From contig NZ_CP059399.1 of the NCBI RefSeq assembly GCF_013744875.1, forward strand, positions 6,696,001 to 6,760,000: DNA of 64,000 bases. Direction: 5' to 3'. Of this stretch, positions 5,418 to 8,168 are shown piece by piece. The notes below the pieces were generated by a model. The model ran no database searches and was not told the DNA's origin. It saw only the letters and a list, made by a program, of their open reading frames with translations. The DNA is from Nocardia huaxiensis (GTDB taxonomy: Bacteria > Actinomycetota > Actinomycetes > Mycobacteriales > Mycobacteriaceae). The position numbers and the translations under genes were made by a program. Each line of letters starts with the position of its first letter. The stretch's first letter is position 1.

Positions 5418-6149
5418 ATGACACGTTTGAATCAGATTGTCGCCGTGGAGAAAGGGATCAAGTCCCGCACTTTTTCCGACCTCACCGAGGCCCATCACAA
5501 GCTGGGCAAGAACCCGCTGCTGAGCGGTATCTCGCGCACCTACCGTCCCAAGGACGAGGAGGGTGAGCAGCTGCCGCCCGAGTCCACGCGCGTGCAGGTG
5601 AAGTCGGACGAGGTGCTCGCCACCACGGCCGAGATTCTGACCAAACTCTTCGACGTGGTGGCCACCAAGGATTGGGCCAACTGCGAGGCCAAGGCCGATG
5701 TGGTGGTGGACGGGCGCACCCTGGTCAAGGACGCGCCGGTCACCTACCTGCTGTTCCTGGAGAAGCAGCTGGTGGACCTGCACACCTTCGTGCGCAAGCT
5801 GCCGGTGCTGGACGCCTCGGAGTCCTGGGAGTACGACGCCGCCGCCGATTGCTACGCCACCGAGCCGGTACAGACGGTGCGCACCAAGAAGATTCCGCGC
5901 AACCACGTGAAAGCCGAAGCGACGGAGAAGCATCCGGCGCAGGTCGAGGTGTATCACGAGGATGTGGTGGTGGGTTACTGGCGCACCATCAAGTTCTCCG
6001 GCGCGCTGCCCGCCAAGCGGGTCAACGAGCTCACCGAACGCGTCGAAAAGCTGCAGCAGGCGGTGAAATTCGCGCGCGAGGAGGCCAACAACGCCGAGAT
6101 CACCCAGCGCAAGCCGGGCGCGGAAATCTTCGGATATTTGTTTGGCTGA
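5418..6149 (+). CDS. Conserved actinobacterial protein of unknown function
   Basis: 243 aa soluble protein starting MTRLNQIVAVEKG (ATG at 5418; a second ATG lies three codons upstream). It resembles a protein widespread in actinobacteria without an assigned function: an N-terminal part with HHKLGKNPLLSGISRTY, a central acidic region and a C-terminal predicted coiled coil at about residues 205-232 (NELTERVEKLQQAVKFAREEANN). There is no signal peptide or membrane segment. Its stop codon overlaps a promoter-like sequence that may drive the permuted tRNA-like genes just downstream. Confidence 0.65.
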   Translation: MTRLNQIVAVEKGIKSRTFSDLTEAHHKLGKNPLLSGISRTYRPKDEEGEQLPPESTRVQVKSDEVLATTAEILTKLFDVVATKDWANCEAKADVVVDGRTLVKDAPVTYLLFLEKQLVDLHTFVRKLPVLDASESWEYDAAADCYATEPVQTVRTKKIPRNHVKAEATEKHPAQVEVYHEDVVVGYWRTIKFSGALPAKRVNELTERVEKLQQAVKFAREEANNAEITQRKPGAEIFGYLFG

Positions 6150-6170
6150 ACGCATTCCGGCGGCTAATGT
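6142..6170 (+). promoter_or_regulatory. Putative promoter of the permuted tRNA-like unit
   Basis: TTGGCT (6142-6147) and TAATGT (6165-6170) are separated by 17 bp, good spacing for a housekeeping sigma promoter, and would start RNA near 6177. It lies at the end of the upstream gene and precedes the tRNA-like sequences. Inferred from consensus only. Confidence 0.45.
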
Positions 6171-6211
6171 CGTCGGTGCGCCAGGAGCGCAAGCTGAAAC
6201 CGAAGCACATA

Positions 6212-6298
6212 GCTGACGGGACCAGCGGCCCAGTGGAGGTTCGAATCCTCCCCCCGCCACCACACGGCGGGGTAGCCCAAGTCGGTAGAGGCACCGCC
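6212..6298 (+). tRNA. Circularly permuted tRNA-like gene A (3' half before 5' half)
   Basis: Reading 5' to 3': a T-arm with stem GGAGG (6235-6239), loop TTCGAAT and stem CCTCC (6247-6251); 3' acceptor strand CCCCGCC (6252-6258); A73 (6259); CCA (6260-6262). A 3-nt linker CAC follows, then 5' acceptor strand GGCGGGG (6266-6272), a perfect 7/7 partner of the 3' strand, then T8, A9 and a D-arm GCC...GGC (6275-6292) whose loop has GGTA. The order is thus that of a circularly permuted tRNA. The anticodon arm is unresolved. CCGC (6294-6297) can pair with GCGG (6225-6228), as in gene B, or GCTG/CAGC (6212-6226) can form a hairpin with a 7-nt loop. CGGGA at 6217-6221 resembles the Pro anticodon plus G37 and A38. 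Outer limits are approximate. The alternative is remnants of tandem tRNAs. Confidence 0.7.
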
Positions 6299-6357
6299 CC
6301 CATCAAACTCACGTTATCGCTCCAGCTTCAGCATTCGCCGCCGAACGCCGAATCGAG

Positions 6358-6468
6358 AGAACGGGTATGGGACGTGGAGGTTGCGGGTTCAACTCCCGCC
6401 GGCCCAGCCACCGATGGGCCGTAGCTTCAAACGTAGAGCGCCACGTAGATTCAGATTGATCCCGTTCT
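6358..6468 (+). repeat. Outer helix closing permuted tRNA-like gene B
   Basis: AGAACGGG (6358-6365) directly upstream of gene B pairs perfectly with CCCGTTCT (6461-6468) downstream of its 5' half. In the transcript this 8-bp helix would stack outside the anticodon stem with an internal loop of 7 and 15 nt, bringing the two ends of the permuted tRNA together. Known permuted tRNA precursors also hold their ends in a base-paired stem before splicing. A canonical bulge-helix-bulge motif is not evident. Confidence 0.6.
6366..6447 (+). tRNA. Circularly permuted tRNA-like gene B, probably Pro(UGG)-like
   Basis: The order is 3' half, CCA, 4-nt linker, 5' half. The 3' half has anticodon-stem strand CGTGG (6373-6377), 5-nt variable loop AGGTT, T-arm GCGGG-TTCAACT-CCCGC (6383-6399), acceptor strand CGGCCCA (6400-6406), G73 and CCA (6408-6410). 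After linker CCGA the 5' half has acceptor strand TGGGCCG (6415-6421, 7/7 pairing), T8, A9, D-arm GCTT...GAGC (6424-6439), G26 and anticodon-stem strand CCACG (6441-6445), a 5/5 partner of CGTGG. TA occurs at both outer edges (6366-6367 and 6446-6447). Joining there gives a 7-nt loop TATGGGA: anticodon UGG with G37 and A38, as in tRNA-Pro. Oddities are A33 in place of U33, U1-A72 with G73 in place of the Pro-type C1-G72 with A73, and no GG in the D-loop. Confidence 0.75.
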
Positions 6469-6503
6469 TAAACGTGTCGGCGTGCCGCAAATGGGCGGCC
6501 ACC

Positions 6504-6536
6504 GAAACCCCTGGGCAGGCTAGGCCCAGGGGTTTC
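6504..6536 (+). terminator. Rho-independent-type terminator after tRNA-like unit
   Basis: A 13-bp perfect stem GAAACCCCTGGGC (6504-6516) / GCCCAGGGGTTTC (6524-6536) with a 7-nt loop is followed by the T-rich CCTATTTCTT. Strong hairpins of this kind commonly end stable-RNA units, so it marks the end of the permuted tRNA-like transcript. Confidence 0.75.
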
Positions 6537-6697
6537 CCTATTTCTTCCGGCCGGATTCGGATGCCCGCGCACGCGTGGCCCGATATCTCGGCGGTTGCTC
6601 ACCGGCTCCGGTCGCCTGTATCGCGAAAAGCGCAGGTGGGAAACGTATTACGTTAGACTGTACGAAGCACTCCCGCCGCTCGCCGAAAGGGGTTCCG
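6537..6697. other. Leader of the phosphoribosyltransferase-like gene
   Basis: The rest of the 548-bp gene-free stretch 6150-6697. It holds the upstream region of the next gene, including an AT-richer segment (CGTATTACGTTAGACTGTAC, about 6644-6663) that may contain its -10 region, and a GAAAGGGG ribosome binding site. No other feature was recognised. Confidence 0.4.
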
Positions 6698-7387
6698 ATG
6701 GTCGAGACCGGTCGGGCACCCGGCGCGCTCTTCGCTGACAGACAGGCCGCCGGCCGGCAGCTCGCCCTGCGGCTGCCAGCCTTCCGCGGGCCGGATGTGC
6801 TGCTCGCGGGGTTGCCGGTGGGCGGGGTCGAAATCGCCTGTACCGTCGCGGATTTCCTGCGGGTTCAGGTGGACGCGCTGGTCCTGCAGGAGCTGCGGGC
6901 CGCCGAGGACGGGAGCGTGTACGGGGCGATCGTGGAGGACGGGGTGCGGGCGCTGGAACTCGAGACCGCGCTCTACGGATTGCGCACCACCTGCGGCGAG
7001 AACCGCACCGAGAGCGGTGCGGTCGAATCGGCGCGCCGCCGGGCGCAGCTGCTGCGCTGCGGACGCGACCGCGCCGTGGTCGCCCGCCGGACCGTGGTGA
7101 TCGTCGCCGACGCGCTGGCGCGCACCGTGGTCGTCCGGGCGGCGGTGCGCTCGGTGTACGCCCGCGGCGCGGTGCGGGTCGCCGTGGCCGCGCCGGTGGG
7201 TTCGGCGGATGTGGTGGCGGCCCTGAGCGACTGGGCCGACAAAGTGGTCTGCCTGCACATCCTGCCCGGATTGGACTCTCCGGACAGCTATTACGAGGTG
7301 TGCGAACCTGCCACCGATGTGCAAATCGGCCTGCTGCTCGCGCAACACGCGAGCGAGTTGCCGGGCACCCACCCGGCAAACCTGTGA
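6698..7387 (+). CDS. Phosphoribosyltransferase-like protein
   Basis: 229 aa from ATG 6698, behind a GAAAGGGG site. The fold looks like type I phosphoribosyltransferases seen next to alpha/beta hydrolases in actinobacteria: an early strand ALRLPAFRGPDVLLAGLPVGGVEIACTVADF and a later core strand VVIVADALARTVVVRAAVRSV at the place of the PRPP loop. In active members that core reads like VDDGxATGxTxxAA. Here the DD pair and TG are replaced (ADALARTV), so PRPP catalysis is doubtful and a regulatory or binding role is possible. It lies 16 bp before the STAS/HATPase gene and probably forms an operon with it. Confidence 0.6.
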   Translation: MVETGRAPGALFADRQAAGRQLALRLPAFRGPDVLLAGLPVGGVEIACTVADFLRVQVDALVLQELRAAEDGSVYGAIVEDGVRALELETALYGLRTTCGENRTESGAVESARRRAQLLRCGRDRAVVARRTVVIVADALARTVVVRAAVRSVYARGAVRVAVAAPVGSADVVAALSDWADKVVCLHILPGLDSPDSYYEVCEPATDVQIGLLLAQHASELPGTHPANL

Positions 7388-7403
7388 CAGAACGAGAGAA
7401 GCA

Positions 7404-8168
7404 TTGCAGAACGAAATCCGCTGGCGGCACTACGATTTCAATGGTTGCCGGGTCGCCTGTCCGCGCGGGGAACTCGATGCCACCACCTATCGCCGGTTCG
7501 TGGACGATGTGGTGAAGCTCGCCGCGGATCATCCGCGGGCGGTGATCGTGGTCGCCGACGAGCTGCTCATCGGCACCGCGGCCTTGCTCACCGCCTTCGC
7601 CAACGCGTGGATCCGGATCAACGGGTTCTCCGGCACGCCGGTGGTCGTGGTCCTCGAATCTCCGCTGACGCGACGGCATTTCGAAGACAGTGCGGTCTGG
7701 CAGTTCGTGCCGCTGGCCCGGAGTGTGCGTGCGGCCGTGGACACGATCGACCGCCCGCCGCTGCGGCGGCGCGCCAGTCTCGGGATCGCCCGCACGGCCG
7801 AGTGTTCCGCGTGCGCACGGCGTTTCACCGCGCTCACGCTCACCGAGTGGGGTGTCGCCGAGGCCGAGATGGCGGGCGCGCTGCTCATCGCCACCGAACT
7901 GGTGGAGAACTCCTTCCTGCACGCGACGGACGGGAAGGACATCCGGCTGCGGCTGGAATACCGGCGCGATCTGCTGAGTATCTCGGTCGCGGACGGGGAT
8001 CCGCAGGAAGCCGTGCGGCGCGACCCGGCTCCGGGCGGCGCCCGCGACTACGGCCTGGACATCATCGCGCGCATTGCCACCACGTGGGGCTGCACGCCGC
8101 AACCGACCGGCGGCAAGGTGGTGTGGGCGGCGCTGCTGACGAAACCGGCTCGGGCGCACCGACATTGA
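7404..8168 (+). CDS. STAS-like plus HATPase (anti-sigma-type) protein
   Basis: 254 aa from a TTG start at 7404, chosen because GAGAGAAG lies just upstream and earlier codons overlap the previous gene. Residues about 10-110 form a STAS-like domain (CRVACPRGELDATTYRRFVDDVV...VIVVADELLIGTAALLTAF). The usual phosphorylated Ser motif DSxGL is replaced by GTAAL. Residues about 125-250 are a GHKL ATPase of the RsbW/SpoIIAB type: N-box ELVENSFLHA and G2 box GGARDYGLDIIARIATTWG. Such proteins act in partner-switching control of sigma factors or as light/stress regulators in the cytoplasm. No cognate sigma factor lies nearby. Confidence 0.75.
   Translation: MQNEIRWRHYDFNGCRVACPRGELDATTYRRFVDDVVKLAADHPRAVIVVADELLIGTAALLTAFANAWIRINGFSGTPVVVVLESPLTRRHFEDSAVWQFVPLARSVRAAVDTIDRPPLRRRASLGIARTAECSACARRFTALTLTEWGVAEAEMAGALLIATELVENSFLHATDGKDIRLRLEYRRDLLSISVADGDPQEAVRRDPAPGGARDYGLDIIARIATTWGCTPQPTGGKVVWAALLTKPARAHRH

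Follow-up and report, generated by a model that had tools for sequence, protein, structure and literature searches.

The locus raises the question whether two adjacent tRNA-like units, in which the acceptor half precedes the 5′ half, are circularly permuted tRNA genes in a bacterial genome or parts of something larger. Both lie in a stretch of 64,000 nt of Nocardia huaxiensis DNA, in the following called the window. The initial annotation took them for permuted tRNA-like genes, and the geometry described there was borne out by direct reading: in both units the T-arm, the 3′ acceptor strand and an encoded CCA come first, followed by a linker of 3 or 4 nt, the 5′ acceptor strand, TA and the D-arm, with the acceptor stems pairing 7/7 across the linker. 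Unit A consists of the T-arm GGAGG-TTCGAAT-CCTCC (6235-6251), CCCCGCC (6252-6258), ACCA (6259-6262), the linker CAC and GGCGGGG (6266-6272), followed by TA and the D-arm. Unit B starts with CGTGG (6373-6377), the variable loop AGGTT, the T-arm (6383-6399) and CGGCCCA (6400-6406), and continues with GCCA (6407-6410), CCGA, TGGGCCG (6415-6421), TA, the D-arm, G26 and CCACG (6441-6445). At the anticodon-stem position, unit B forms 5/5 pairs, with a single nucleotide at position 26 and a variable loop of 5 nt, and unit A 4/5 by eye. When mononucleotide-shuffled sequence was scanned over 1.65 million strand positions, a relaxed descriptor of this arrangement gave 5 matches, versus two within 150 nt here. 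Reading the DNA in its native order, ARAGORN reports no tRNA or tmRNA anywhere in the window, and an Rfam scan of the window returned nothing at gathering score. Missing from the initial annotation are the helices enclosing the units, the relatives in other genomes and the DUF7873 gene preceding the units (Table 1).

The DUF7873 protein of the window passes the Pfam model PF25283 with 394.9 bits at a cut-off of 27, and a protein search with it returned 7570 relatives; outside Nocardia, the proteins among the bacterial rows aligned are 73-81% identical to it and belong to soil actinomycetes, Chloroflexota and others. The DUF7873 search provided 80 bacterial loci (the best 80 of 547) and, from further sources, 11 viral contigs, 73 phage records and 4 plasmids. 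A descriptor script locating tandem permuted units right behind DUF7873 found both units in 58 of the 91 fetched loci, the bacterial ones being the best 80 of 547, in addition to the window. Of the 33 loci in which the script had not found two units, 26 have the RNA at most ~0.5 kb behind DUF7873 according to two covariance models trained on loci behind DUF7873, R1 for the A domain and R2 for the B domain. This brings the loci with the RNA at that distance to 84 of the 91 fetched (bacterial ones selected as above). L084 gave weak matches only (24.6 and 26.0 bits), L085 carries the RNA on the opposite strand about 1.2 kb off, and five Chloroflexota loci (L026, L029, L032, L033 and L036) gave no RNA within the flanking sequence fetched. 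Among the 71 neighbouring ORFs scanned no other gene family recurs, none being present in more than two.

Whether the units belong to a larger structure was decided by covariation. Of 46 non-redundant two-unit sequences we aligned 36; L004, L005, L008, L013, L021 and L041 were omitted for their closeness to other sequences, and L088-L091 for their divergence. The consensus comprises 67 pairs, 98.3% of the cells pair among the 36 aligned relatives, and compensatory changes are present, 49 of the 67 pairs having changed on both sides. Cells changed on both sides number 327, versus 83.9 ± 8.1 in shuffled and 27-63 in slid controls, both of which flatter the covariation somewhat since the structure was deduced from these same, mutually related sequences. 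Covarying pairs include all 6/6 of the long-range helix 6, and the D-stem of unit A is invariant across the alignment, thereby saying nothing on covariation. At the anticodon-stem position a mean of 4.2 and 4.1 of 5 pairs form in the two units versus 2.4 and 3.1 with shuffled partners, the observed values being raised by taking the best of three variable-loop lengths. The would-be anticodon arm continues into covarying long-range helices. Both units thus belong to a single conserved, predicted RNA of ~360 nt behind DUF7873.

Upstream of this RNA, a sigma70-like site is present in 28 of 59 loci including the window, as counted by script without a shuffle control, and lies 20 nt before the anchor in most of them; it is absent in 31/59 loci, mostly from Streptomyces and kin. 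In four actinomycete loci (L042, L044, L047 and L054) a GC-rich inverted repeat, seen by eye, replaces the -10 box between DUF7873 and the RNA, suggesting that the RNA may be made differently there. A hexanucleotide repeat, YUNARN, recurs in the window at 6191-6217, 6308-6333 and 6452-6462 and at the same place in relatives. In segment 1, two YUNA motifs spaced by 6 nt occur in 46 of 59 loci compared to 0.95 expected from mononucleotide shuffles, and three in a row in 26 of 59, the loci being related in both counts. YUNARN is self-complementary, so that several registers of pairing between the segments are conceivable.

Table 1. Features of the predicted RNA and of the preceding gene, in coordinates of the window.
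Feature	Position	Strand	Basis or remark
DUF7873 (PF25283) gene, 243 aa, proposed RNA partner	5418..6149	+	Pfam E 2e-118
Candidate promoter: TTGGCT, 17 nt, TAATGT	6142..6170	+	script scan
Predicted large noncoding RNA with two tRNA-like modules	about 6178-6538	+	covariation, 67 pairs; ends inferred
Segment 1 with YUNARN hexads	6191..6217	+	pairs partly with segment 2
tRNA-like unit A: stem at anticodon-stem position, T-arm, acceptor + ACCA, D-arm	6224..6298	+	
Unit A acceptor hairpin CCCCGCC-ACCA-CAC-GGCGGGG	6252..6272	+	7/7 pairs; helix 3, 7/7 covarying
Segment 2, hexad region	6308..6333	+	pairing partner: segment 1
Long-range helices around unit B, 5′ strands (GCCGCC; CGCCG)	6337..6350	+	helices 6 and 7; partners 6478-6499
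Stem below unit B, 5′ strand AGAACGGG	6358..6365	+	partner CCCGTTCT 6461-6468; helix 9, 6/6 covarying; fold
tRNA-like unit B: 27-31/39-43 stem, position 26, 5-nt variable loop, T-arm, acceptor + GCCA, D-arm	6373..6445	+	
Unit B acceptor hairpin CGGCCCA-GCCA-CCGA-TGGGCCG	6400..6421	+	7/7 pairs; helix 11, 7/7 covarying
Stems below unit B, 3′ strands, plus conserved CTTAAACG	6461..6499	+	alignment, covariation
GC-rich closing hairpin, likely terminator	6504..6536	+	helix 13; 7/8 pairs covarying

The RNA and DUF7873 occur together over whole genomes. We scanned the order of a Nocardia genome, which we take to be Mycobacteriales (150 genomes), and the phylum of Herpetosiphon, presumably Chloroflexota (151 genomes); these large scans used stricter filters with which weak matches are lost, and at least G001 is a training genome of the models. 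At a threshold of at least 45 bits, chosen after seeing the scores, R2 matches 18 of the 19 genomes with DUF7873 and 0 of the 282 without it (301 genomes). In the order of the Nocardia genome, DUF7873 is present in 8/150 genomes and R2 reaches at least 57 bits in the same 8 only, the best score without DUF7873 being 43.1 bits. In the Herpetosiphon phylum, with DUF7873 in 11/151 genomes, R2 reaches at least 60 bits in 9 of these 11 and in 0 of the 140 others (P 6e-13); G277 scores 47.3 bits, G189 33.3 bits next to its own DUF7873 gene, and the other 140 at most 38. In Herpetosiphon (G016) and four genomes of near-equal score the RNA lies on another contig or 0.1-1.8 Mb from DUF7873, with the A domain there confirmed by R1. 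At lower scores R2 also matches further genomes lacking DUF7873; six of these were checked, four containing YrlA-like RNAs below the gathering score and two tandem tRNAs. The joint occurrence across genomes argues for a likely RNA-protein partnership rather than for decoding tRNAs, and its persistence in unlinked genomes makes the pair directly testable. We consider it probable that units A and B are modules of one predicted RNA of ~360 nt which is likely the partner of DUF7873 and does not serve as decoding tRNA.

Of the known systems, YrlA is the most instructive, and it was overlooked in the statement of the initial annotation that there is no established bacterial set of permuted tRNA-like RNAs. 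The crystal structure of this bacterial Y RNA superposes on tRNA via a circular permutation (parts of PMC11472068), so that a bacterial set with such an order is already known. YrlA (RF02553) shares with the units the permuted series of T-arm, acceptor hairpin, UA and D-arm, joined to a stem via the anticodon-stem position. At a permissive threshold its model matches unit B over 1-114 with 32.9 bits (E 2.5e-5) and unit A over 30-81 with 24.5 bits, both missing the gathering score of 69, as likewise do the YrlA-like RNAs of other genomes with 38-45 bits. Unlike YrlA, the RNA described here usually contains two modules in about 360 nt, with NCCA in a third of the units, and its neighbour is DUF7873 and not Rsr. 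Of the 28 genomes with DUF7873, 15 gave a TROVE (Rsr) match, in most cases over part of the model, and 13 gave none; Rsr thus does not seem to be indispensable as a partner. In G009, the genome of L012, the DUF7873 RNA is accompanied by a YrlA-like RNA on another contig (L108 1501-1566; G009:C36), about 0.8 kb from a TROVE match. GOLLD and ROOL, described in parts of PMC12286853 as large structured phage RNAs of unknown function often found near tRNA islands, are comparable as large structured RNAs of phages often lying within tRNA clusters, whereas the present RNA has tRNA-like modules and a conserved protein gene beside it; neither GOLLD nor ROOL was matched when the window and 14 further loci were scanned with Rfam.

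We propose a model in which the RNA would be transcribed from its own predicted promoter and terminate at the GC hairpin. The long-range helices would form a scaffold carrying two tRNA bodies, each attached via the anticodon-stem position and closed by a loop at the acceptor end, which keep T-loop, D-loop and elbow and dispense with the anticodon. From the co-occurrence we infer that DUF7873 binds the RNA, presumably at the scaffold. By analogy with YrlA, the bodies may dock on enzymes recognising the tRNA elbow, such as tRNA-modifying enzymes, RNase P, PNPase or the ribosome, in order to bring or hold them. For bacterial Y RNA, tethering of PNPase to Rsr and modification by DusA and TruB have been described (parts of PMC8394870); the division of labour might be like that of Y RNA, Rsr and PNPase, but with a different protein and two mimics. 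A literature search found DUF7873 named in none of the papers retrieved, and the libraries tried attach no function to it. The predicted model (pLDDT 92.3, pTM 0.76) has no clear match among solved structures, so nothing marks DUF7873 as RNA-binding. At the top of the Foldseek PDB list stand the Cas7 backbone chains of Cascade, with E-values of 6.6e-3 to 4e-2 and a TM of about 0.13, i.e. not superposable. Cas7 binds RNA in steps of 6 nt, which together with the hexad repeat is a lead and not evidence. One source calls the DUF7873 protein P0016 an ornithine carbamoyltransferase, likely a misannotation.

Other explanations of the two units have to be weighed against this. That they are the remains of a tandem tRNA array, permuted in appearance only, was rightly rejected by the initial annotation: adjacent tRNAs can imitate the core of the RNA model, R2 having been triggered by tandem tRNAs in L118 and L129, but both acceptors covary together with the enclosing helices, in a layout fixed over phyla, so that this origin, refuted by covariation, has next to no probability. 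Highly improbable are also genuine permuted tRNA genes, as originally suggested, whose transcripts would be circularised and trimmed to decoding tRNAs in algal style. The order of the halves is like that of the permuted genes of algae and archaea, the acceptors pair 7/7, CCA is encoded in the window, and the rotated units are tRNA-like bodies, with ARAGORN calling a tRNA in 140 of 142, a call favoured by the rotation, which fixes a 7-nt loop and appends CCA. Unlike in such genes, the anticodons of the rotated units scatter and none is conserved, U33 is not conserved, T occupying position 33 in 7/60 and 15/60 units (the rotation assuming the loop position), CCA follows the acceptor in just 41 of 124 units, and the arm and flanks run into one larger covarying RNA enclosing the units. 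The known pathway of permuted tRNA genes moreover relies on BHB motifs and probably on the tRNA-splicing endonuclease (parts of PMC3978253). Unit A is also missing in some relatives: in nine Streptomyces loci the A domain is reduced to 86-122 nt within preserved surroundings, and the tRNA-like body of the unit is absent in the eight inspected in sequence (L058, L062, L068 and L072-L076), the search pattern having missed the ninth, L053. A D-arm-like remnant of unit A is retained in L074; the reduced stretch of L072 folds as a good hairpin, and the one tried for L062 does not. The units are anticodon-less tRNA mimics resembling the YrlA domain.

Such mimics could still be processed. It is unlikely that RNase P and the tRNA 3′-end enzymes cut the linkers, resulting in two or three paired pieces with chargeable CCA ends, tmRNA-like and without anticodons. 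In permuted tmRNA genes the acceptor half is encoded before the 5′ half with a linker between them, the order also found here. NCCA stands right after the acceptor in 20/62 first and 21/62 second units, independent positions predicting about 8 each; position 74 is C in 48/62 and 57/62, and position 73 is A in 60/62 first units. Five phages of Vibrio, Klebsiella and Rhizobium were read, with NCCA in 5 of their 6 units, and among relatives the acceptor strands are separated by anything from about 4 to 38 nt. The kept NCCA and the conserved C74 make linker processing as in tRNA or two-piece tmRNA possible. Against this, 83 of 124 units are without CCA, and the carriers of NCCA are clumped by lineage, including the window and the second units of all eleven listed Nocardia. 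The permuted, two-piece form of tmRNA (parts of PMC3978253) resembles the units in its linker-joined halves; the RNA described here differs by a complete D-arm and two modules, no conserved tag reading frame was seen in the segments read by eye, and tmRNA families score 24.8 and 24.1 bits in two relatives at a gathering score of 84. We regard as decidedly doubtful the extension that bacteria and phages share a new particle of DUF7873 and a double tRNA-body RNA cut at NCCA and G1 into several pieces with two chargeable ends. Quite improbable, too, is a phage decoy or sensor directed against host enzymes cutting or binding tRNA, with chromosomal copies acquired from phages, a role that would lead to a frequent location in tRNA clusters. 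Of the 73 phage records 11 were read, and the script found at least one permuted unit in 10 of them; in Racecar, Phendrix, NiceHouse and RHph_TM39 (L092, L094, L095 and L100) DUF7873 and the RNA lie inside clusters of many tRNA genes, tRNA arrays have been called a putative antidefence system (parts of PMC12803027), and the D-arms vary among the phages, being Leu-like or Ser-like by our reading. But no tRNA genes are annotated nearby in Pam2 (L097) or the Microcoleus phage (L098), the latter having DUF7873 but no unit located by the script; the mimics are without the anticodon that anticodon nucleases cut, and the RNA is chromosomal in soil actinomycetes, Chloroflexota and others with the DUF7873 proteins described above.

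If the partnership of DUF7873 with a scaffold RNA is right, the permuted tRNA fold would be a reusable module not peculiar to Ro-associated Y RNAs, and DUF7873, a family of unknown function, would gain an RNA partner and a testable role. It would also concern annotation, since rotated units resemble tRNAs: the record of Klebsiella phage Centimanus has a tRNA-Stop(tta) annotated over part of the RNA-bearing stretch (L099 3513-3596), and Vibrio phage D517 has an annotated tRNA shortly after a permuted unit (L093 5103-5175). Elsewhere in the window, a YkuD L,D-transpeptidase gene lies at 47-598, and 7317-8168 encodes a protein with a histidine-kinase-like ATPase domain.
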